A stretch of 64,000 nucleotides of DNA from Planctomycetota bacterium (GTDB lineage Bacteria > Planctomycetota > Phycisphaerae > Phycisphaerales > SM1A02): assembly GCA_016873255.1 (NCBI GenBank), contig VGXR01000004.1, positions 1-64,000 of the forward strand, written 5' to 3'. The notes beneath the pieces were generated by a model. The model did not search any database and was not told the DNA's origin. It saw only the letters and a program-made list of their open reading frames with translations. Shown one piece after another: positions 2,749 to 56,112 of the stretch (its first letter is position 1; each line of letters starts with the position of its first letter). The translations under genes and the position numbers were made by a program.

Positions 2749-2821
<73 letters not shown>

Positions 2822-2845
2822 TTCGAAACGGAAGGACTGCAGACC

Positions 2846-3268
2846 ATGGCATCAGAGGCCATCTACAAGAGCGGGCAGGGGTACTGGACGCGGATGATCT
2901 CCGCGTCGGCCTTCGGCCTGCTCATCGCCCAGGGCACGTACTGGACGTGGTCGAAGCTCGGCTCGGGCGGCGGCGACGTCGCCGGGTACGTGGCCATCGG
3001 CGCCGCGCTGGTGTTCTTCGCGGGCCTGGGCTCGCTGGTGTTCTGGCTGCTCGGGCGCAACCCGCGCTCGGTGGACTTCCTGATCGCCACCGAGGCCGAG
3101 ATGCGCAAGGTGAACTGGTCCACGCGGCGCGAGATCACCAACTCGACCGGCGTGGTGATCGTCACGATGCTCGCCATCGCGATGTTCTGCTTCGTGTGCG
3201 ACCGTGCGTTCGCGTGGGGATTCCTGCAGGTCGGCGTGCTCGACAGCAGCGTCCTGGAGTCGGAGTGA
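2846..3268 (+). CDS. secE: Preprotein translocase subunit SecE
   Basis: A 140-residue membrane protein, part of the SecYEG channel. Two predicted membrane spans occupy roughly residues 17-35 and 47-72. The conserved SecE core follows: an amphipathic helix with EAEMRKVNWSTRREI (the family signature around E..KV.WP.+.E) and then a third span about 107-125. The three-span form is like that of Escherichia coli rather than the minimal one-span form. The ATG at 2846 lies just after tRNA-Trp, and nusG follows 31 nt downstream. Confidence 0.93.
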   Translation: MASEAIYKSGQGYWTRMISASAFGLLIAQGTYWTWSKLGSGGGDVAGYVAIGAALVFFAGLGSLVFWLLGRNPRSVDFLIATEAEMRKVNWSTRREITNSTGVVIVTMLAIAMFCFVCDRAFAWGFLQVGVLDSSVLESE

Positions 3269-3299
3269 CGGCGCCGTCCGGCGCGCGGAGGATCGAACG

Positions 3300-4115
3300 A
3301 TGGACCTGAGCAACGAGACCCACGAGCACGAGCACGCGGACGCCCACGAGGGCGCCCACGAGGGCGCCATGACCCGTACCGACGGCGGCAAGACGCTGGC
3401 CCGCGGCCGCGACGCGCTGCAGAAGATCGCCGGCCCGCGCCTGAGCGACTTCGGCGTCGAGACCGGCAAGGCGCTCGAGCCCTCGCGTCGCGGCAAGAAG
3501 GCCGCGGAGCCCGTGGTGGCGGTGCCGCCGCAGGACGAGTCGGAACTCCCGATGTTCCGTCCGGGCTTCAACTGGTTCGTGCTGCGCGTGGCCTCCAACA
3601 AGGAGGACTCGGTCCGCAACACGCTGCTGCGCAAGGTGCAGATCGAGGGACTGGAGCAGTCCGTCGGCCGCATCATGGTGCCGACCGAGAAGACCAAGAC
3701 GCTCAAGGCCGGCAAGCAGAAGATCACCGAGACCAAGCTCTATCCGGGCTACGTGTTCGTGGAGATGCGCCTCGAGGCCGATGGCCGCATCCCGCAGGAC
3801 GTGTTCTTCCTGATCAAGGAGACCACGGGCGTCGGCGACTTCGTCGGCACCGCGGGACGTCCCACCCCGATGGGCCCGGCCGAGGTCGAGAAGATGCTGT
3901 TCGACAGCCGCCCCGCGGAGCAGGCCCCGCAGGTCAAGATGGACTTCGCCGCCGGCGACGCCGTCACGATCAAGGAAGGCCCGTTCCAGAACTACGAGGG
4001 CACCGTCGACAGCACCGTGCCGGACAAGGGCATCGTGCGCGTGCTGGTGACGATCTTCGGTCGGCAGGTGCCGGTCGACGTCGAGTACTGGCAGGTGGCG
4101 AAGGCCGGCTCGTAA
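3300..4115 (+). CDS. nusG: Transcription antitermination factor NusG with long N-terminal extension
   Basis: The NGN domain starts near residue 90 (FNWFVLRVASNKEDSVR) and contains the YPGYVFVEM signature. A KOW domain with GDAVTIKEGPFQNYEGTVD lies near residue 217, so the 271-residue protein is a full NusG that binds RNA polymerase. The first ~85 residues are extra: a His/Glu/Asp-rich start (NETHEHEHADAHEGAHEGAM) and a basic linker. An alternative start at Met24 would remove the His-rich part only. GGAG at 3287-3290 supports ATG 3300. The stop codon TAA (4113-4115) is already inside the left terminal repeat of the adjoining element, and no rplK follows. Confidence 0.95.
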   Translation: MDLSNETHEHEHADAHEGAHEGAMTRTDGGKTLARGRDALQKIAGPRLSDFGVETGKALEPSRRGKKAAEPVVAVPPQDESELPMFRPGFNWFVLRVASNKEDSVRNTLLRKVQIEGLEQSVGRIMVPTEKTKTLKAGKQKITETKLYPGYVFVEMRLEADGRIPQDVFFLIKETTGVGDFVGTAGRPTPMGPAEVEKMLFDSRPAEQAPQVKMDFAAGDAVTIKEGPFQNYEGTVDSTVPDKGIVRVLVTIFGRQVPVDVEYWQVAKAGS

Positions 4116-4418
4116 ATCCGCTCCTGGTTCCTTTGGCACCAGTTGTTTTCTCTAGGGAAATCGCCGTGGGTGCTCTGACGTCGGGCGGTTGACGGGTTGC
4201 GGTGGTTCCGGCGGTGGCCGCGCCCCTTCGTTGCGCCGGGACCCCCGTCTCGCGCACGGCCTTGCTCCACCAGGTTCCGCTGCGGCCTCGATATGCATGC
4301 GTTCGTCCGGGATGCACCCGGGAGTAGTCGGTACCGCAGCTGCCGGACTTCTCGCCTGCATACGGCGCTGCGCCGGGGGTTCCCGTGCTCACTGCGGGGC
4401 GCTCGCCGAGTGACGGAA

Positions 4419-4520
4419 GGCGCCCCCCATTCGACCGCCTGTTGAAGCTCGACAGCCGGCGCCCGACCGCCTGCTGATGAACGACAGCTGGCGCCCGACC
4501 GCCTCCCGACGTTCGGCGCC
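4419..4520. repeat. Degenerate tandem repeat inside the 4.1-kb element
   Basis: Three adjoining units begin GGCGCCC (4419, 4458, 4490), share CGACCGCCT, and the first two end GACAGCC or GACAGCT. The clean middle unit is 32 nt. The meaning is unknown. Confidence 0.6.
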
Positions 4521-4633
4521 CCGAGCCGACAGCGAACGGTGGTGGCCTCATCAAGCGAGTTGTTGCACGCCCCGGCCGCGCGCTCCTCGCCGCAGATGCA
4601 CCCGTTGCGTGCAACTTGTCCGAGCGACTGAGG

Positions 4634-4712
4634 CCACCGCCGGTCGCCGAGGCGCCCAGGCACTCACTACGCCGAGCGACCGCCCCCACCGCCGGTCGCC
4701 GAGGCGTCCAGG
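4634..4712. repeat. 27-nt direct repeat pair, 52-nt period
   Basis: A 27-nt block beginning CCACCGCCGGTCGCCGAGG occurs at 4634-4660 and 4686-4712 with one difference. A more degraded third version lies near 4738 (CCACCGCC then GAGGCACC). These lie inside the inverted-repeat element. Confidence 0.65.
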
Positions 4713-4862
4713 TGCACACCGCACCGCGCAACCGACCCCACCGCCTTTCGCAGAGGCACCTCGGCACCCTGGACCCCACATCTCACTTCCCGCACCGCGT
4801 TTCTCTGGAGAAAGAAATTGGTGCCAAAGTAACCAGGAACGGATTTACCTACACTTCGCGGC

Positions 4863-28954: not shown

Positions 28955-29992
28955 GTGCCGGGCCTCGACGCAAGCCCCGCCATCGCGGTGGTCGGCGCCA
29001 CCGGAGCGGTGGGCGCCGAGCTGCTCGCGCTGCTCGAGTCGCGCGGCTTCCCGGCACGCAGCGTGAGGCTGTTCGCGAGCGCGCGGAGCGTGGGCAAGGC
29101 CGTGCGGGTGATCGGCCGCGACGTGGCGGTCGAGCCGCTGGTGCCCGGGTGCTTCGAGGGGACGGATCTCGCGTTCTTCGCCGCGAATGCGGGCACCAGC
29201 CGCGAGTGGGCGCCGCAGGCGGTGCGCTCCGGCGCGTGGGTGGTGGACAAGTCGAGCGCGTTCCGGATGGATCCCGCATGTGCGCTCGTGATCCCGGAGG
29301 TGAACGGCGGCGAGCTCGACGCGCTGCGGTCGCCCGCGATCGTGGCGGTGCCGAACTGCTCGACGATCATCGCGCTGATGGCCGCGTCGCCGCTCCATCG
29401 CGAGGCGGGCGTCGCGCGCATGGTGGTGTCGACCTACCAGGCGGCGAGCGGCGCGGGCGCGGCGGCGATGGAGGAACTGGCGCAGCAGGCGCGCGACTGG
29501 GCCGCGGGCCGCCCGCTCGACACGCGGATCTTCGGGCGGCAGTGCCTGTTCAACGTGTTCAGCCACAACAGCGCGGTGGGCGACGACGGGCAGAACGACG
29601 AGGAGCGAAAGCTCGTGGACGAGACGCGCCGCATCTGGCGCGACGCGTCCGTGCAGGTGAGCGCCACCTGCGTGCGCGTGCCCGTGCTGCGCGCGCACAG
29701 CGAATCGATCAATCTCGCGTTCCGGCGGCCGATCACCGAGGCGCGCGCGCGCGAGGTGCTTGCCGCCGCCCCGGGACTGCGGGTGGTGGACGACCGCGCC
29801 GCGAACCGCTTTCCCGAGCCGATCGAGGCGTCCGGCCGCGACGAGGTGCTCGTGGGACGCATCCGCGCGGACCTGAGCCAGCCGGAGGGCATGGGCCTCA
29901 GCCTGTTCGTGAGCGGCGACCAGGTCCGCAAGGGCGCGGCGCTCAACGGCATCCAGATCGCCGAGCACCTCCTGAAATCCGTTCCTCGTTAG
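28955..29992 (+). CDS. asd: Aspartate-semialdehyde dehydrogenase
   Basis: This 345-residue enzyme makes aspartate semialdehyde for lysine, threonine and methionine synthesis. GATGAVG is at residues 14-20, DKSSAFRMD at 98-106, and the active-site Cys135 sits in VAVPNCSTI. STYQAASGAG and a late His in RVPVLRAHSESINL complete the active site. GTG 28955 follows the apaG stop by 1 nt. The last codons (KSVPR then TAG) come from the left arm of an inverted-repeat element, so the original C-terminus may have been altered by a few residues. Confidence 0.96.
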   Translation: MPGLDASPAIAVVGATGAVGAELLALLESRGFPARSVRLFASARSVGKAVRVIGRDVAVEPLVPGCFEGTDLAFFAANAGTSREWAPQAVRSGAWVVDKSSAFRMDPACALVIPEVNGGELDALRSPAIVAVPNCSTIIALMAASPLHREAGVARMVVSTYQAASGAGAAAMEELAQQARDWAAGRPLDTRIFGRQCLFNVFSHNSAVGDDGQNDEERKLVDETRRIWRDASVQVSATCVRVPVLRAHSESINLAFRRPITEARAREVLAAAPGLRVVDDRAANRFPEPIEASGRDEVLVGRIRADLSQPEGMGLSLFVSGDQVRKGAALNGIQIAEHLLKSVPR

Positions 29993-30075
29993 TTTGGCAC
30001 CAATGTCCTTCTCCAGAGAACGATCGTTTCTCCGGAGGGTTTGTCCGGTGCCAAACCAACCAGGAACGGATTCAG
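29972..30075. repeat. 104-bp palindrome, short member of the 4.1-kb inverted-repeat family
   Basis: The left arm (CTGAAATCCGTTCCTCGTT..., 29972-30020) and right arm (reverse complement of 30027-30075) carry the same ATCCGTTCCTGGTT, TTTGGCACC and TCTCC..GA blocks as the element at 4112-4848, here separated by only a few bases around CGATCG. It fills the convergent gap between asd and trpS, holds the asd stop codon and overlaps the trpS stop. As RNA it would form a long hairpin and could act as a two-way terminator. Confidence 0.7.
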
Positions 30076-32063: not shown

Positions 32064-35000
32064 ATGGCCTACCGACGCCCGCTGCCTCTCTTCATCGCCT
32101 CGCCCTCGGCGGCCCGGTGGGTGCCGCTTGCCACCCTGACGCTGGCGGGCTGGCTCTCGCAGGGCGCGCGCGCGCAGACGGTGGTCGCCGGCGGCACCAC
32201 GACGACGATCTCGGTCGCGGACCTTCTCACCGCCGGCAACCTGGAGTTCACGCAGGGCGACGGCACCGCCGGCACGCTGCAGCTCACCACCGGCGGCACG
32301 TTCAGCAATTCGTGGAGCCTCGCCGACGCGATCGCGCGCTTCGACCTCGGGGGCAACGCGCTCACCATCAGCTCGCTCAACCCTGCCGGCAACACGGCCT
32401 CCGGCACGTGCGCGATCGAGGTCATCAACGGAACGCTCACGCTCGGGAACAACAGCTTCCTCGCGGGATTCACCGGCTCGCTGACGGCAAGCGGCGGCGG
32501 CTCGCTCGTCCTTCGCCAGTCCGACTGGCTGACCGCCGCCACCGCGATCAACCTCGGCGGGACCGCCGGCACGCCGACGCTGACCTGGGACAGCAGCGCC
32601 GCGGTGACGTACGCGGGCGCGCTCAACCTCCTCGGCGGCAGTGTCTCCACGATCGCGACCACGCAGGACACCGGCGTGCTCACGCTCAACGGCGCGGTCT
32701 CGGGCACGGGCGACCTCACGCTCCAGCACACGAGCGTCACCGCGGGCCCGACGATCGTCCTGGGCCTGACGGGCGGCTTCACCGGACGCACCATCCTCGA
32801 CACCGCGAACGTTCGCGTGAACACCCAGCAGTCGATCGGCTCGGACGGGCTGACGCTCAACGGTGCGACGCTGACCGCGGGCGCATCGCTCGAGATCGGC
32901 GCGGGGCAGACGCTGGTGGTCGGCTCCACGTCGACGATCGCAGGCACCGGAGCACCGGGCGCCCTCACCGCGATGACGGTGGTCGGCGAGATGCAGGGTG
33001 CCGCGGACCTCACGCTCACCGCGATGGACTTCGCGGTTAACGGCGCCGCCGCGACCTACTCCGGCGACGTCTCGCTGCGCGGCGGGTCGCGGCTCTCGGT
33101 GTCCAACGACACCTGGCTCACCACGGTGGGCACCATCGCGATGAACGCGGACGGAGCGGCCTCTGCGTTCCGGTACACGGGCGCTGCCGCCGGCGCGTTC
33201 GCCGGCACGCTCAGCCTGGGCAACGGCACCGCGACCGTCTCCTCGACCCAGGACTTCGCGCTCACCGGGACCATCGGCGGAACGGGCGACCTGCTGGTGA
33301 CGCGCGCCGCCGGGTCTTCGGCGGAGATCGGCCTCGGCTTCTCCGCGGGCTCGTTCACCGGCACGACCATCGTCAGCTCCACCGAGGCGCGGCTCCTCAC
33401 GGCCAACTCGGTCGGCGACGCGGGCCTGACCCTGTCGACCGGCGACCTCACCATCGACGCGGGCCTCGGTTCGCTCACGATCGGCGCGGCGCAGGCATTC
33501 ACCGTCACGGGTGCCTCCTCCGTCACCGGCGACGGCGGCGCCCTGCCGCTGACGGTGGACGGCACGATGGCGGGCAACGGCACGCTGACGCTCAACGACA
33601 TCACGATGACCGTGAACGGCGCGGCATCGACCTTCACGGGCGGCGTTCGCCTCGCCGCGGGCTCCGGCCTGACCGTGGCGAACGGCGCGTGGGTCGGCTC
33701 GCTCGGCGCGCTGACCTTCGATGCCGCCTCCACCGTCGCCTACACCGGTGCGACCGCGGCGACCTACGACGGCTCGCTGACGCTCACCGCCGACGCGACG
33801 ATCCAGACCTCGGGCGCCGCCGCGGCCGCGCTGACCCTCACCGGCGCCGTGAGCGGCACGGGCGACCTGACGCTCGAGGCCGCCGCCGGCTCGACCGCGG
33901 GATTCACGCTCGGCCTGACCGGCTCGTTCGCGGGCTCGACCATCGTGAACGATGCGGACGTGCGCATCAACACGAACGCGTCGATCGGCCAGGGCGGGCT
34001 CGAGCTCAACGACCTCGACCTGACCGGGCTCGCCGCGACGATCGGCAGCAACCTGACCCTCGGGAATGCGCAGGCGCTGACCGTCGCCGGCACCGTCACG
34101 ATGACCGGCGCCGCGAGCGGCCGGCTGGTGAACGCGCAGGGCGGCCTTCGGTCCGCCGTCGCCGCGACGCTCGCGCTCGACGGCATCGCGCTCAAGGTCG
34201 GCGACGGCGCGGCCTCGACGTTCACGGGCGACATCACGCTCACCGACGGCGCCACGCTGACGCTCGACGGCGCCGACCTCTCCGGCACCGACGTCGGCTC
34301 GATCGCGGGCGGCACCGCGGTCACGTTCGGCGGCATCGGCACGATCGGCTCGCTCGGCTCCGTGGCGACGCCGTTCGCGGGCAACCTGAACCTCGGCGAC
34401 CTCGGCGCCTCGGCAACCTCCGTGCTCAACGTCGCGGGCGATGCGCGGCTCGCCGCCGCGTCGACGCTGCGCTCGTACTTCCTCGAGTCGTCGGGCGGCG
34501 CCGGCACGGCCGACCTCCTCGCGGCCACCGGCTCGTTCACCGCCGGAAGCGCGACCGCAAGCCTCGTCTTCGACCCCAACATCTTCACCGGGACCTGGAT
34601 CCCCGCGGCCGGCCAGACCGAGACGTACACCATCGTCACCGCCGCCGGCGGCCTCTCCGGCACGTTCGCGACCGTGAACGTCGTGACCATCGACCCGGTG
34701 ACCGGGCTCCCGACCACGCGCACGCTCGACCAGTCCGGGGAGACGCGATTCCTCGGCGGCGGCTTCTCCGTGGACTACGGGGCGGACTCGTTCTCGGTGT
34801 CGATCCTCGGCATCGGCGGGCCGGATCCGCTGCCGCCCGCCGGCACCACGGACACGAACGTGGTCGTGCCGGTCCAGGTCGGCGCCACCACCGTCAACCG
34901 CAACGCGAACGTCGGCGTCGTCAGCAACGCGCAGATCAACGCCTCGGTCGACGCGATGAACGACCTGCTCGTCGACCCCGCCGCATCGGCCGACGCGAAG

Positions 35001-36170
35001 TTCGTCGCCACGCAGCTCCTCCTGAACGACGCTCCTGCCTACGCGAGCGCGGTGGTCGCCTCGAGCGGACCGGCGAACCCGCAGGCGCTCCCGACCTCGC
35101 TGATGCTCGGGATGTTCGACACCGGCGACGTGTCGATGCGACGCCTCATGCAGCTGCGACCGCCCTCGAACCGCACCGTGTCCGCGGGCGCGGTCCGCGG
35201 CCAGGATCGCCCGGCCGCGCAGCAGGCACCGGGCACCGCCGGCACCGCGATCGCCTCGCCCGTTGCCGTCTCGCGGCGCCGCTCCTTCGGCGCCGAGCTC
35301 TACGGCCCCTCGCCGGACACGGGCATCCGCGGATGGGCGCGCGGCTTCGGCTGGTCGGGCTCGTTCGACAGCCAGCCCTGGGCGCAGACCTCGTACAACT
35401 CCGTGATCGGCGGCGCGATGGCGGGCGCGGACGTCTCGGTCGGCAGCGGCGGCATCCTCGGCGCGTTCGTGGGCTACATGCCCGGATCCGTCGACGTGAC
35501 CGGCGGCCTCGTCGACGAGTCCATGACGCTCAACGGCGTCAACTTCGGCCTGTACGGCAGCTGGGTCCCGAACAACGGCGACTGGTACCTCGCGGGATCT
35601 GCCACGGGCGCCTGGGCGTCGATCGACCGCACTCGCACGCTGTACGTGCCTGGCGCCGTCCGCACCGCGGACTCGAGCAGCACCGCATGGTCCGTGGCCG
35701 GGATGGGCGAGACAGGCTGGAACGTCTGGCTCGGCGGCGACACCTACATCGATCCCTACGTCCGCGCCGCGTTCGGGTACTTCAACCAGGGCAGCTACAC
35801 CGAGACCGGTGCTGGCAGCCTCAGCCTTTCGGTGGGCGACCAGCAGGCCTATGCGCTGCAGCCCTCCGTCGGCGCGCGATTCATGCACGGCATCCGGTCC
35901 GGCGGAAGCGTCATCACGCCCTACGTCGGGGGCGCGTTCACCGCGGTGATCCCGATGGGCGACTGGTCGGTGACGGCGACGAACTCGTTCACGTCGCTGC
36001 CGCTCATCCAGGCCTACGGCGATCCCGAGACGCAGTATGGCGGCAGCGTCGAGGCCGGCGTCGAGTGGGCGATGCCCAGCGGATTCACGGTGTTCGCCGC
36101 GTTCAACGGCATGTTCCTCTCGGAAGGGCAGGTGCTCGGCGGCTCCGCCGGCATCGTGATCCCCTTCTGA
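32064..36170 (+). CDS. Large autotransporter with beta-barrel C-terminus
   Basis: This 1368-residue protein has a long signal peptide (to about residue 37, RAQ), a Gly/Thr/Ala/Leu-rich passenger and a C-terminal autotransporter beta-domain (about 1085-1368, beginning near GIRGWARGFGWSGSF, ending in Phe). The passenger has a triplicated module of ~190 residues, each with a GTGDLTL-type line, a SIGxxGLxLN line and a TLxI/LxVxG line, starting near residues 210, 400 and 595, consistent with a beta-helix. The region 880-1070 is Pro/Ala-rich. It is most likely a type Va surface protein; the ligand is unknown. The ATG lies 38 nt after a TAATCT box (32026-32031), with weak Shine-Dalgarno AGGGGA. Confidence 0.85.
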   Translation: MAYRRPLPLFIASPSAARWVPLATLTLAGWLSQGARAQTVVAGGTTTTISVADLLTAGNLEFTQGDGTAGTLQLTTGGTFSNSWSLADAIARFDLGGNALTISSLNPAGNTASGTCAIEVINGTLTLGNNSFLAGFTGSLTASGGGSLVLRQSDWLTAATAINLGGTAGTPTLTWDSSAAVTYAGALNLLGGSVSTIATTQDTGVLTLNGAVSGTGDLTLQHTSVTAGPTIVLGLTGGFTGRTILDTANVRVNTQQSIGSDGLTLNGATLTAGASLEIGAGQTLVVGSTSTIAGTGAPGALTAMTVVGEMQGAADLTLTAMDFAVNGAAATYSGDVSLRGGSRLSVSNDTWLTTVGTIAMNADGAASAFRYTGAAAGAFAGTLSLGNGTATVSSTQDFALTGTIGGTGDLLVTRAAGSSAEIGLGFSAGSFTGTTIVSSTEARLLTANSVGDAGLTLSTGDLTIDAGLGSLTIGAAQAFTVTGASSVTGDGGALPLTVDGTMAGNGTLTLNDITMTVNGAASTFTGGVRLAAGSGLTVANGAWVGSLGALTFDAASTVAYTGATAATYDGSLTLTADATIQTSGAAAAALTLTGAVSGTGDLTLEAAAGSTAGFTLGLTGSFAGSTIVNDADVRINTNASIGQGGLELNDLDLTGLAATIGSNLTLGNAQALTVAGTVTMTGAASGRLVNAQGGLRSAVAATLALDGIALKVGDGAASTFTGDITLTDGATLTLDGADLSGTDVGSIAGGTAVTFGGIGTIGSLGSVATPFAGNLNLGDLGASATSVLNVAGDARLAAASTLRSYFLESSGGAGTADLLAATGSFTAGSATASLVFDPNIFTGTWIPAAGQTETYTIVTAAGGLSGTFATVNVVTIDPVTGLPTTRTLDQSGETRFLGGGFSVDYGADSFSVSILGIGGPDPLPPAGTTDTNVVVPVQVGATTVNRNANVGVVSNAQINASVDAMNDLLVDPAASADAKFVATQLLLNDAPAYASAVVASSGPANPQALPTSLMLGMFDTGDVSMRRLMQLRPPSNRTVSAGAVRGQDRPAAQQAPGTAGTAIASPVAVSRRRSFGAELYGPSPDTGIRGWARGFGWSGSFDSQPWAQTSYNSVIGGAMAGADVSVGSGGILGAFVGYMPGSVDVTGGLVDESMTLNGVNFGLYGSWVPNNGDWYLAGSATGAWASIDRTRTLYVPGAVRTADSSSTAWSVAGMGETGWNVWLGGDTYIDPYVRAAFGYFNQGSYTETGAGSLSLSVGDQQAYALQPSVGARFMHGIRSGGSVITPYVGGAFTAVIPMGDWSVTATNSFTSLPLIQAYGDPETQYGGSVEAGVEWAMPSGFTVFAAFNGMFLSEGQVLGGSAGIVIPF

Positions 36171-51425: not shown

Positions 51426-53063
51426 ATGCCCCGACGCCCGGGACAACTCGCCGCCGCCCTCGCCGCCGCCGCCATGGCGGGCGTGGCCGTGGCGCAGGAT
51501 GCGGTGGCCACGGGCGGTGTCCTCGACCAGCCCGCGCCCAGCGTCGATGACCTGATGAAGCGGCTCGAGAGCCTCGAGGACCGCAACCGCGAGCTGGAGG
51601 CACGCGTCACCGACCTCTCCCGCCAGCAGGGCGAGGAGTGGCTCGGCGAGCAGCGCGCCAGCCAGATCCGCGACATCGTGCGCGACGTGCTTGCCGACAG
51701 CGAGCAGCGCTCGAGCCTGCGCGACGGCGGCATGACCGCCGGCTGGAACGACGGCTTCTTCATGGCCAGCGCCGATGGCCGGTTCCGGATGAACATCGGC
51801 GGGTTCGTGCAGAGCCGGTTCATCTGGAGCTCGATCCATGCGGGCTCGTACAACGTGGCGGACCCGCAGCAGCAGTACGTGTTCGACCGCGAGGTCAACC
51901 GCTACGGGTTCGACATCCCGGACATGCAGCTGTGGGCCGACGGCCACGTGTTCAGCCGCGACTTCCAGTACATGGTGAAGGCGCGCTTCTACCAGCAGAT
52001 CACCACCAACGTGAACAAGGGCGCCAACGGCTCGGCCGTGGGCGGTGCGGCGGACTTCCAGGACTTCGAGCTGATGGATGCGTGGATCCGCATCAATCTC
52101 GACGACAACTGGTCGTTCCGCGCGGGGCAGTTCCGCAGCCCTTTCTCGCGCGGGTTCCTGGTGCTCGAGCAGTACCAGATGTCCGCGTCGCGGTCGGTGG
52201 TGGACTTCCACTACGCGCTCGGCTACACCCAGGGCATCGAGGCCGAGTACATGAACGACGAGTTCCGCATGCGGAGCTCGCTGAACAGCGGCGCGCCCGA
52301 CGTGCTCCTCGGCGACACCAACGCGGCGTACGGCGCGCAGGCCTTCGTGATCTACCCGTCCGGCACGTACGGCGGGCAGAACAGCCCGTGGTGGTCGCAG
52401 AACGCAAACATCAGCTTCACGGGCCGCGTCGACTGGAAGCCGGCCGGCAGCTGGGAGCAGTTCCGCAGCTACACCAGCCCCGCGGGCGAGACCTTCGCGT
52501 TCCTGACGGGCTTCGGGTTCCACTACCAGGAGTCGCAGGGCTACCAGCCCAACGACGGCACCCCGGGGCAGGCCAACCCGAACAACCAGTGGATCTCCGC
52601 GACGCTCGATGCGCAGGCCAACTTCGGCGGCGCCTCCGTGTACGGCGCGCTGTTCTACAACTACCTGAACGCCACGGGCTCCACCATCCCGGCCTTCGGC
52701 GGCGCGGGCCCCGCGCTGCAGCGCGACCTGGGCAACCTGAACATCTTCGCGGCGCAGCTCGAGGGCGGTGTCTACCTGATGCCCAAGGTCGAGCTGTTCG
52801 GGCGCTACGAGTTTGCCTACATCTCCGGCTACGACGCCGCCGAGGTGACGGCTACCAACGATCAGCTGGGCGACGTGGCGCCGATGAACCTGCTCACCGC
52901 GGGCATCAACTGGTACCTCGACGGGCAGGACCTGAAGTGGACCACCGACCTGGGCTGGTCGATCACCGACCTGCACCCGTGGTTCGCCGACCTGAACGCG
53001 GGCTGGCGCCCCTCGCGCGCCAACGAGATCGTGTTCAGGACGCAGCTGCAGCTGATGTTCTGA
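51426..53063 (+). CDS. Porin 3 of the tandem set
   Basis: The largest copy (545 residues), with signal peptide (MPRRPGQLAAALAAAAMAGVAVAQ), coiled coil (MKRLESLEDRNRELEARVTDLSRQQ), the family block EEWLGEQRASQIRDIVRDVLADSEQRSS, GWNDGFFMASADGRFRMNIGG, and terminal Phe (TQLQLMF). It has about 80-100 residues more in the loop region than its neighbours. TAGGAT (51409-51414) is 11 nt before the ATG. The three copies likely arose by tandem duplication. Confidence 0.85.
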   Translation: MPRRPGQLAAALAAAAMAGVAVAQDAVATGGVLDQPAPSVDDLMKRLESLEDRNRELEARVTDLSRQQGEEWLGEQRASQIRDIVRDVLADSEQRSSLRDGGMTAGWNDGFFMASADGRFRMNIGGFVQSRFIWSSIHAGSYNVADPQQQYVFDREVNRYGFDIPDMQLWADGHVFSRDFQYMVKARFYQQITTNVNKGANGSAVGGAADFQDFELMDAWIRINLDDNWSFRAGQFRSPFSRGFLVLEQYQMSASRSVVDFHYALGYTQGIEAEYMNDEFRMRSSLNSGAPDVLLGDTNAAYGAQAFVIYPSGTYGGQNSPWWSQNANISFTGRVDWKPAGSWEQFRSYTSPAGETFAFLTGFGFHYQESQGYQPNDGTPGQANPNNQWISATLDAQANFGGASVYGALFYNYLNATGSTIPAFGGAGPALQRDLGNLNIFAAQLEGGVYLMPKVELFGRYEFAYISGYDAAEVTATNDQLGDVAPMNLLTAGINWYLDGQDLKWTTDLGWSITDLHPWFADLNAGWRPSRANEIVFRTQLQLMF

Positions 53064-53100
53064 TCGTTTCCGCAGGAATCGGTGCGCCGCCGGGGTTCCC

Positions 53101-53106
53101 TATCAT
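53101..53106 (+). promoter_or_regulatory. -10 box of purL
   Basis: TATCAT ends 9 nt before ATG 53116. Confidence 0.5.
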
Positions 53107-53115
53107 GCGGGGTCC

Positions 53116-56112
53116 ATGGCCGCTGTCCATCGCGTCGAGGTCCGTCCGAGGCAGGGGCAGCGGGACACGCGCGCCGATGCGGCGCTGCGGCAGGCTTCCG
53201 CGCTGGGACTCCCGGTGCCATCGGCCGCGCAGCATGCAAGCGTCTACCTGCTCGAGGGCGAACTGACCGAGGCGGACGTGCGGCGCATCGCCGGCGAGCT
53301 GCTCGCCGACCCCGTGACGCAGGTGGCCGAGGTGCAGCGGCGCGGCGAGGCCCGCCCGCGTCTGGACGCGCTGGTCGAGGTGCATCCGCTCCCGGGCGTG
53401 ACCGACCCCGCGGCCGAGAGCGTGGAGATGGCCGTCGAGGCGCTGCTCGGCGTGAAGGTGCGGGTGCGCACCGGCGACCGGTACGACCTGGCGGGCGTCG
53501 ATGCCCGCGCCGCGGCGGCGCTCGGCGAGCGCGGCGTGGCGAACCCCGTCATCCACGGCATCCACGCCGAGCCATGGCACCCGGAGCGGTTCCCGTCCGG
53601 GCGCCGCTACGAGCTCCGCATCGTCGAGGTGCCGATCCGCGACCTCGCCGACGCGCAGCTCGAGCGGCTGAGCCGAGACGCGCACCTCTTCCTGTCGCTC
53701 GACGAGATGCGCGCGGTGCAGGCCGAGTACCGGCGCCTCGGGCGCGAGCCGCGCGAGATCGAGCTGGAGACCATCGCGCAGACCTGGAGCGAGCACTGCG
53801 TCCACAAGACGCTGAAGAGCACCGTGCGCTACCGCGAGGCGAACCTCGCGCCCGGGCAGAAGTCGCTCGTGGGCGATTCCGCGCGCGGGCGACCCAACCA
53901 CGAGCCCGCCGCCGACGGCAGCGTGACCGTGCGCAACCTGCTCAAGAGCACCGTGGCCGCGGGTACCTTCGCGCTGATCGACGAGAAGCGCGCGGACCGC
54001 ATCGACTGGTGCCTCTCCGTGTTCGTCGACAACTCCGGCGTGATCGCCTTCGACGAGCACCACGCCGTGTGCTTCAAGTGCGAGACGCACAACCGCCCCA
54101 GCGCCATCGAGCCCTACGGCGGCGCGGCCACCGGGATCGGCGGCTGCATCCGCGACATCATGGGCACCGGCCTCGGCGCCAAGCCCGTGGCGGCGACCGA
54201 CGTCTTCTGCGTCGCGCCGCTCGATGGCACCGATGTGCCCGCGGGCTGCCTCCCTCCGCGGCGCATCCTCGGCCAGGTGGTGGCCGGCGTGCGCGACTAC
54301 GGCAACCGGATGGGCATCCCCACGGTGAACGGTGCCGTGTGGTTCGATCCGCGCTACGTTGGCAACCCGCTCGTCTACTGCGGCGTGGTGGGCACCATGC
54401 CGCGCACCATGGTGAAGGGCCGCGTGGAGCGCGGCGACCGCATCGTGGCGATGGGCGGCCGCACGGGGCGCGACGGCATCCACGGCGCCACGTTCTCGAG
54501 CGCCGAGGTGGAGCACGGCCACAGCAGCGAGTTCAGCCACGCGGTGCAGATCGGGAACGCGATCACCGAGAAGACCATGCTCGATGCGCTGCTCGCCGCG
54601 CGCGACCAGCCCGACGGTCCGCTCTACCGCGCGCTGACCGACTGCGGCGCGGGCGGCTTCTCGAGCGCCGTGGGCGAGATGGGCAAGGACATCGGCGCCA
54701 CCGTGCACCTCGAGCGCGCGCCCGTGAAGTACGACGGCCTCAGCCCCACGGAGGTGTGGATCTCCGAGGCGCAGGAGCGCATGGTGCTTGCGGTGCCGGA
54801 GGAGAGGCTGCCGAGGCTGCGCGCGGCGTGCGCGGCGCACGGCGTGGAGATGTGCGAGCTCGGCGTGTTCGGCACCGACGACGGCGCCATCCGCCTGCTC
54901 TGGCACGGGACCGAGGTGGGCGCGCTCGACACGCACTTCCTGCACGAGGGCGTGCCCATGCCCACGCGCGAGGCAACCTGGGACGCGGCATGGAGCGCGT
55001 CGCAGCAGCCGCCCGCGGGCGACGGACGCGGCGTCGGCCCGCGGCTCGTGGACACGGCGTGCACGCTCCTTGCGCACCCGAACCTGGCGAGCAAGGAGTG
55101 GATCATCCGCCAGTACGACCACGAGGTGCAGGGCGGCAGCGTCGTGAAGCCGCTGGTCGGCGTCGGCAGCGGCGGCCCCTCGGACGCCGCCGTCATCCAC
55201 CCGGTGCCGGGCTCGGCGCGCGCGCTGGCGATCGGCAATGGCCTGGCCACCGGCTGGTGCGGCGATCCGTACGCGATGACCCTCGCGGCGATCGACGAGT
55301 GCATCCGCAACCTGGTGTGCGTGGGCGCGGATCCGTCGCGCATCGCCATCCTCGACAACTTCTGCTGGCCGTCGTGCGACGAGCCGCGCAACATGGGTGC
55401 CCTGGTGCGCGCGGCCGAGGCGTGCCTCGACGGCGCGCTTGCCTACCGCGCCCCGTTCATCAGCGGCAAGGACAGCCTGAAGAACCAGTTCCGCACGCAG
55501 GGCGGCCGGACGATCATGATCCCGCCGACGCTCCTGGTGTCGGGCTTCGGCATCGTGCCCGACGCCGTGCATGCGTGCACCATGGACCTGAAGGCCCCCG
55601 GCAACCTGCTGGTGCTGGTGGGCACGACGGGCGCGCGCATGGGCGGGAGCCACCGCGCCATGCTCGGTGCCTGCGCGCATGCCGACCGGCGGCTCCCCGA
55701 GGTCGACCCTGCGCTCGGGGCCCGGACCGCGCGTGCCGTGGCCGCATGCATCGCCAAGGGCGCCGTGCGCAGCGCGCATGACCCGAGCGAGGGCGGGCTG
55801 CTGCCGGCGGTCGCGGAGATGTGCATCGGCGGCGCGCTGGGCGCGCACGTGGACCTGTCGGCGGTCCCCGCCGCGGCGGGCGGCGTGGGCGACGAGTGCC
55901 GAGCGTTCGCGGAGGACCCGCACCGCTACCTGCTGGAGGTGGAGCCGGGACGGCTCTCCGTGGTGCAGGCGCACCTCGACGGAATCCCGCACGCGGTGAT
56001 CGGCACCGTGACCGAGGCTGCGTTCCTCGAGGTGGTGGGGACGGCAACGCCGCGCGAGAGCGTGGCCGTCGAGGCGCTTCGGGCGGCGTGGAGCACGCCG
56101 ACGGGAGGATGA
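53116..56112 (+). CDS. purL: Phosphoribosylformylglycinamidine synthase, PurS-PurL fusion
   Basis: This 998-residue enzyme makes FGAM from FGAR and glutamine-derived ammonia. The first ~190 residues are two PurS-like units (ASVYLLEGELTEADVRRIAGELLADPVTQ, then LVEVHPLPGVTDPAAESVEMAVEALLG), followed by the PurL core with TWSEHCVHKT, GGAATGIGGCIRDIMGTGLGAKPVAATDVFCVAP, GGRTGRDGIHGATFSSAEV and VVKPLVGVGSGGPSDAAVI. PurS is normally a separate gene in systems with stand-alone PurQ; here it is fused. PurQ follows with a 4-nt overlap (ATGA), so the complete FGAM synthase is encoded here. Confidence 0.95.
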   Translation: MAAVHRVEVRPRQGQRDTRADAALRQASALGLPVPSAAQHASVYLLEGELTEADVRRIAGELLADPVTQVAEVQRRGEARPRLDALVEVHPLPGVTDPAAESVEMAVEALLGVKVRVRTGDRYDLAGVDARAAAALGERGVANPVIHGIHAEPWHPERFPSGRRYELRIVEVPIRDLADAQLERLSRDAHLFLSLDEMRAVQAEYRRLGREPREIELETIAQTWSEHCVHKTLKSTVRYREANLAPGQKSLVGDSARGRPNHEPAADGSVTVRNLLKSTVAAGTFALIDEKRADRIDWCLSVFVDNSGVIAFDEHHAVCFKCETHNRPSAIEPYGGAATGIGGCIRDIMGTGLGAKPVAATDVFCVAPLDGTDVPAGCLPPRRILGQVVAGVRDYGNRMGIPTVNGAVWFDPRYVGNPLVYCGVVGTMPRTMVKGRVERGDRIVAMGGRTGRDGIHGATFSSAEVEHGHSSEFSHAVQIGNAITEKTMLDALLAARDQPDGPLYRALTDCGAGGFSSAVGEMGKDIGATVHLERAPVKYDGLSPTEVWISEAQERMVLAVPEERLPRLRAACAAHGVEMCELGVFGTDDGAIRLLWHGTEVGALDTHFLHEGVPMPTREATWDAAWSASQQPPAGDGRGVGPRLVDTACTLLAHPNLASKEWIIRQYDHEVQGGSVVKPLVGVGSGGPSDAAVIHPVPGSARALAIGNGLATGWCGDPYAMTLAAIDECIRNLVCVGADPSRIAILDNFCWPSCDEPRNMGALVRAAEACLDGALAYRAPFISGKDSLKNQFRTQGGRTIMIPPTLLVSGFGIVPDAVHACTMDLKAPGNLLVLVGTTGARMGGSHRAMLGACAHADRRLPEVDPALGARTARAVAACIAKGAVRSAHDPSEGGLLPAVAEMCIGGALGAHVDLSAVPAAAGGVGDECRAFAEDPHRYLLEVEPGRLSVVQAHLDGIPHAVIGTVTEAAFLEVVGTATPRESVAVEALRAAWSTPTGG

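Follow-up and report, generated by a model that had tools for sequence, protein, structure and literature searches.

The inverted-repeat elements that sit at gene ends in this Phycisphaerales-like genome (2.78 Mb, 97.5% complete; labeled G000) are probably REP/REPIN-type elements of one non-autonomous family, and their transposase is missing from the assembly. REP and REPIN repeats are normally moved by a single-strand-cutting transposase, and we regard the arms of the family as REPs of the kind that flank Y1 transposase genes because of their homology to, and shared layout with, such repeats in the sister species of the genus (labeled G001 to G013).

The window, by which we mean the whole stretch of 64,000 nucleotides that was analyzed, contains four matches to the 16-nt head of the arms where 0.07 would be expected, which is not a chance result. 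A long copy (4112-4848) lies after nusG, and its arms (4112-4160 and 4800-4848, 49 nt each) are 86% complementary and 639 nt apart, much as the original prediction had it (~46-bp terminal inverted repeats around ~640 bp of noncoding DNA); when the interior was examined for ORFs, no gene-like one was found. The internal repetitiveness claimed for this copy is also real and comes from two tandem arrays, with units of 52 nt (4620-4775) and 32 nt (4432-4527). Every arm begins with a 32-nt unit, AAAT-N24-ATT(T/G). The parts of the long copy, and the short copy, are as follows (window coordinates):

4114-4145, + strand: REP-like unit of the left arm (32 nt), AAATCCGCTCCTGGTTCCTTTGGCACCAGTTG; the nusG stop TAA (4113-4115) takes its final AA from this unit
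4146-4160, + strand: inner part of the left arm, small palindrome TTTCTCTAGGGAAA
4213-4415, + strand: 5' interior module; long elements of the sister species G001 share it at ~68-70% identity, and in G012 it is part of a longer match
4432-4527, + strand: internal tandem array, three units of 32 nt
4530-4649, + strand: conserved hairpin, in which stem P1 covaries, the internal loop (TCAAGCGAGTT / TGTCCGAGCGAC) is invariant, and stem P2 is variable; best match of model R2 (123 bits)
4620-4775, + strand: three 52-nt tandem repeats, equal to the 3' strand of the hairpin plus its downstream flank
4800-4814, - strand: inner part of the right arm, palindrome TTTCTCTGGAGAAA
4815-4846, - strand: right REP-like unit, inverted
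29975-30073, + strand: short-class REPIN-like element, 99 bp, between convergent asd and trpS, with stop overlaps at both genes

The short copy had been predicted as a second family member of 104 bp at 29972-30075; it is real, at slightly different borders. Arms had also been placed on or beside the stop codons of nusG, asd, and trpS, which is correct for two of these genes. Both nusG and trpS terminate on the first bases of their arm: the TAA of nusG consists of T4113 and element bases, and the TGA of trpS (complement of 30072-30074) lies on the right-hand border of the short element, with its last bases in common. The third gene, asd, reads past the TGA beside the arm and terminates within the arm itself, at TAG 29990-29992.

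The family had been predicted to stand or fall with the presence of further genomic copies, and these exist: with up to two mismatches, the 16-nt arm head matched the genome 60 times and its reversed control 0 times. Copy numbers, which rest on genome searches and on the stretches read rather than on the whole genome at once, came to ~75 arms and 28 paired elements in the stretches read. The elements fall into two size classes, a short one (mostly 98-100 bp) and a long one (178-733 bp) with common interior sequence. The pairing script left 19 arms without a partner, some of which have a partner under the score threshold, while several lie at contig ends, as would be the case if long copies had broken the assembly; single arms were seen near the ends of contigs C12, C14, C29, C32, C50, and C110. 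One arm pair (C6:52731-53320, corresponding to L042 2732-3321) surrounds a gene-like ORF (52823-53248), RidA family-like by eye, in place of the usual interior. A covariance model of 12 short elements (R1) recovered 18 distinct short elements in this genome and further ones in two other members of the genus, G012 and G004. The exact arm pattern had a single match across GTDB genomes (L073), in a metagenome-assembled genome titled Phycisphaera mikurensis, where the sequence around the match is that of G005. Of the 75 arms, 70 are preceded by T or G.

Placement relative to genes was assessed with a simple codon-usage caller made for this analysis. Among the 28 paired elements, 23 lie between convergent genes, 5 between co-directional genes, and 0 between divergent genes, compared with 6 convergent junctions out of 47 for the same caller in the window, the one window from which the background was taken (23/28 versus 6/47, binomial p ~1e-16). 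Most gene stops coincide with position 1, 2, 18, or 33 of the arm, since the arm itself supplies stops there, either as T/AA or TG/A across its edge, as TAG at 16-18, or as TGA at 31-33. The elements are mostly extragenic, as REPINs are. Placement in G012 and G004 is similar, if looser: 18 of 25 elements with both neighbors called are convergent, in a set that contains 3 elements from this genome, and some genes stop 6-18 bp ahead of the arm. Published REPs likewise occur as dimers, are often convergent, lie within 20 bp of both ORFs, and frequently supply the stop codon (PMC3733652). Copies, pairing, and gene-end position together support the predicted non-autonomous inverted-repeat family at gene ends.

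The connection to a transposase comes from the sister species. Y1 transposases (PF01797, IS200-like) are present in nine of them (G001-G008 and G011), while a PF01797 profile search found none in this genome, G012, G009, or G010, and tblastn with the G004 Y1 protein found none in this genome, G012, G013, G009, or G010. Judged by the NCBIfam model NF047646, the sister-species Y1 proteins resemble REP-associated tyrosine transposases: of four proteins scored, one lies above the cut-off of 80 bits (82), one just under it (79), and two clearly under it (60 and 54). When 15 Y1 loci were scanned for inverted repeats, a repeat pair was found to span the gene in 14, and the 15th (L206) has a tight inverted doublet of one common motif on each side. 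These flanking repeats are mostly of the form AAAT-N24-ATTT(T), the exceptions being L220 and L206, with differing sequences, and L199, a Y1 transposase of G001 whose repeat is GTAG headed in a genus where most others are AAAT headed. The repeat nearest to the arm is that of the G004 transposase, with 21 of 32 bases identical, a value reached by 0 of 2000 shuffles; the G004 unit has a 12-bp stem, of which the arm in this genome keeps 8 pairs in a by-hand comparison. The AAATCCG version of the arm was not found flanking any transposase among the loci examined.

A comparison of ten junctions across the genus showed orthologous junctions to be empty in some sister species and filled by other REP families in others, and at least 12 junctions are occupied both here and in G012 or G004. 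Site 3 is empty in G007 (15 bp) and G008 (7 bp), and at site 8 five species have just 29-30 bp. At site 3, G004 contains AAATAGGTGCCGTGTTAAAGCGACACCTATTT twice, inverted, G005 contains a palindrome that includes CCCCGTACGACTTTATC, and a further clade contains arrays of AAATAGGTGCC...CACTGTCCC; the palindromes of G004 and G005 match repeats at the Y1 transposase loci of their own genomes. At site 4, the element lies at the same codon in this genome and G012 and lies ten bases further on in G004, which suggests that the G004 element was inserted independently. Many G012 elements appear to have near-perfect arms that differ from element to element, as would be expected of recently copied units.

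The original prediction had also held that the long copy replaces the rplK junction. This was not borne out, since the same lipoprotein gene, and no rplK, follows nusG in all six sister species read. The spacer between nusG and the lipoprotein gene is short in G002, G006, G008, and G010, longer in G003 but without the element of this genome, and ordinary in G004, where it contains a terminator-like hairpin; a motif search of six order-level outgroup loci gave no L11-like sequence downstream of nusG. NusG itself (3204-4115, 303 aa) has a long N-terminal extension, its NusG domain beginning at residue 123, and SecE (2819-3268, 149 aa) has a long N-terminal extension ahead of the conserved domain. 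Elsewhere in the window, the protein encoded at 32064-36170 (1368 aa) has an autotransporter beta-domain at its C terminus (Pfam PF03797, 131.6 bits).

The interiors of the long elements have homologues in sister species, and they include a hairpin of ~120 nt (4530-4649), in which an invariant, asymmetric internal loop (YCAAGCGAGTT / TGTCYGAGCGAC) separates stem P1 from the variable stem P2. In an alignment of 17 sequences from five genomes, 96.5% of the cells are paired and 16 of 29 pairs have changed on both sides; the covariation score was reached by 0 of 500 shuffles, and slid versions were ~40% paired. These statistics lean toward structure, as near-identical within-genome copies were included and one alignment served both to derive the structure and to score it. 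Nevertheless, the magnitude of the effect argues that the structure is real, as does the hairpin of G004, which lies outside the alignment and combines a wholly different P1 with the same loop. The structured-RNA idea of the original prediction draws support from this hairpin, with its strong covariation, and not from the arms, which lack covariation in this genome. Model R2 found the hairpin in 7 of 14 genus members (this genome, G001, G004, G005, G007, G012, and G013) and not in G002, G003, G006, or G008-G011; beyond the genus, it gave one weak match, in G030 of another genus. A class-wide model search, with 9 candidates scored per genome, gave matches in this genome only, and the class-wide pattern TGTCTGAG, which the copies of this genome (TGTCCGAG) do not fit, gave 3 matches, the control rate. 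Rfam offered nothing convincing for the element at a permissive threshold (best, SNORD66, 16.8 bits versus 32 needed), and over the window it returned two tRNAs and nothing else.

In the reading that we favor, both size classes have the same ends. Two arms, inverted around a short spacer, make up the 99-bp element (29975-30073), and the REP-like ends around a larger cargo (conserved 5' module, hairpin, and tandem repeats) make up the long elements (4114-4846). A RAYT/TIRYT-like enzyme that acts on single strands, without target duplication, may have moved them, and such a transposase may have been lost from this genome or left unassembled. As the arms bring stops into the reading frames, insertions at the 3' ends of convergent genes would have been nearly harmless, and those insertions would for this reason have survived.

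Alternatively, the elements might be MITEs, derived from a classical double-strand transposon of the DDE type whose parent transposase recognizes the 46-bp ends. Long terminal inverted repeats, many copies, and the lack of coding capacity would suit such an origin, yet direct repeats flanking the elements were found for no k from 2 to 9, i.e., the target duplication is missing at all of these lengths, and the layout is common to the repeats around sister-species Y1 transposases; with transposase searches that covered the Y1 type, we consider a DDE-type origin improbable. It is very improbable that the elements are functional bidirectional terminators or 3'-end RNA structures, conserved for the host and persisting since convergent genes need copies of them. 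Although 23 of 28 elements lie at convergent junctions, long stable hairpins are predicted, and at least 12 junctions are shared with sister species, these junctions hold no element in other sisters, one junction holds differing palindromes in different species, and three Ts only follow the stem. Moreover, own-arm Watson-Crick pairing in 12 short elements of this genome (0.70) is no better than that of swapped arms (0.72), and their covariation lies under the shuffled mean, so that an arm helix maintained by compensatory change was rejected for this genome. The predicted role in termination thus found no support; termination or mRNA stabilization may occur as a side effect.

A further alternative, which leaves the interpretation of the ends as REPs intact, applies to the long class: the internal hairpin could be the true spreading RNA or DNA element, with the REP ends as a mere insertion platform. 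The strong covariation of its stems and, by eye, copies without REP ends nearby in G005, G012, and G004 speak for this possibility. However, every complete hairpin copy read in this genome sits within REP ends, and the G001 copies adjoin, or sit between, 32-nt REP-like units of G001's own, at two sites filling junctions that hold a short element in this genome. Given that REP-bounded mobility is likely as well for copies so placed, we think it unlikely that the hairpin spreads on its own. It is tempting to speculate, with some reserve, that the hairpin is a previously undescribed, multi-copy motif of one Phycisphaerales clade, which might act as an RNA or as a single-stranded DNA recognition site that aids the movement or the host action of REP-bounded elements. 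As for the REP/REPIN reading of the family, the RAYT missing from its own genome, the missing GTAG foot, elements that at 300-733 bp far exceed typical REPINs, and arms that match no better within than between elements count against it. Two of these, the GTAG foot and the cognate RAYT, are classical REPIN features, and as both fail, the firmer claim is that the family works like a REPIN.

The opinion of the original prediction that no named family fits was wrong, since layout, dimers, stop-codon position, and Y1 linkage in sister species fit REPINs together with the TIR repeats of TIRtrons. REPINs are REP doublets that form hairpins (Bertels and Rainey 2011, PMC3116915). The elements resemble them in consisting of two short conserved inverted units and a spacer on the 70- to 110-bp scale, extragenic, non-autonomous, and present in many copies (PMC3116915), with a spacer less conserved than the ends. 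They differ in that the arms start with AAAT and lack a GTAG or GT[AG]G foot, in that the cognate RAYT, present in sister species, was found neither by PF01797 nor by tblastn in this genome, and in that long-class elements are several times larger. TIRYTs, or TIRtrons, are IS200-like tyrosine transposase genes with non-GTAG flanking inverted repeats whose genomic copies occur as dimers (PMC3733652). Their TIR repeats are alike in forming dispersed dimers, related repeats flank Y1 genes in sister species, and the published GGGGWSAS motif (PMC3733652) is matched by some of the repeats in sister species (GGGGACAG in G007), whereas the AAATCCG family is without this motif, and none of its copies was seen at the sides of a transposase. 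The TnpA-Y1 genes of class 3 and subclass 2.6, which include Planctomycetes, are associated with atypical secondary structures, and their flanking structures without GT[AG]G, with genomic copies, are similar, but the published foot of class 3 is CnGA rather than AAAT (PMC6006769).

Insertion without target duplication is shared with mobility of the IS200/605 type. Like BIMEs, the long-class elements are mosaics, here of REP-like ends and other internal repeats, although their internal modules are, to our knowledge, unrelated to E. coli BIME motifs. No paper on REPs in Phycisphaera was found in the set of literature searched. The present family carries REP/REPIN biology into a planctomycete order that has received little study, with ends other than GTAG. 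The sister species form a natural comparison, with the same junctions empty or holding other REP families, some of which match their own transposase, so that target choice and the lineage-specific turnover of REPINs become testable; the covarying hairpin adds a concrete new motif with a testable function. Among known systems, the short class probably belongs with the REPIN/TIR elements, and the long class is new in its cargo and its hairpin.
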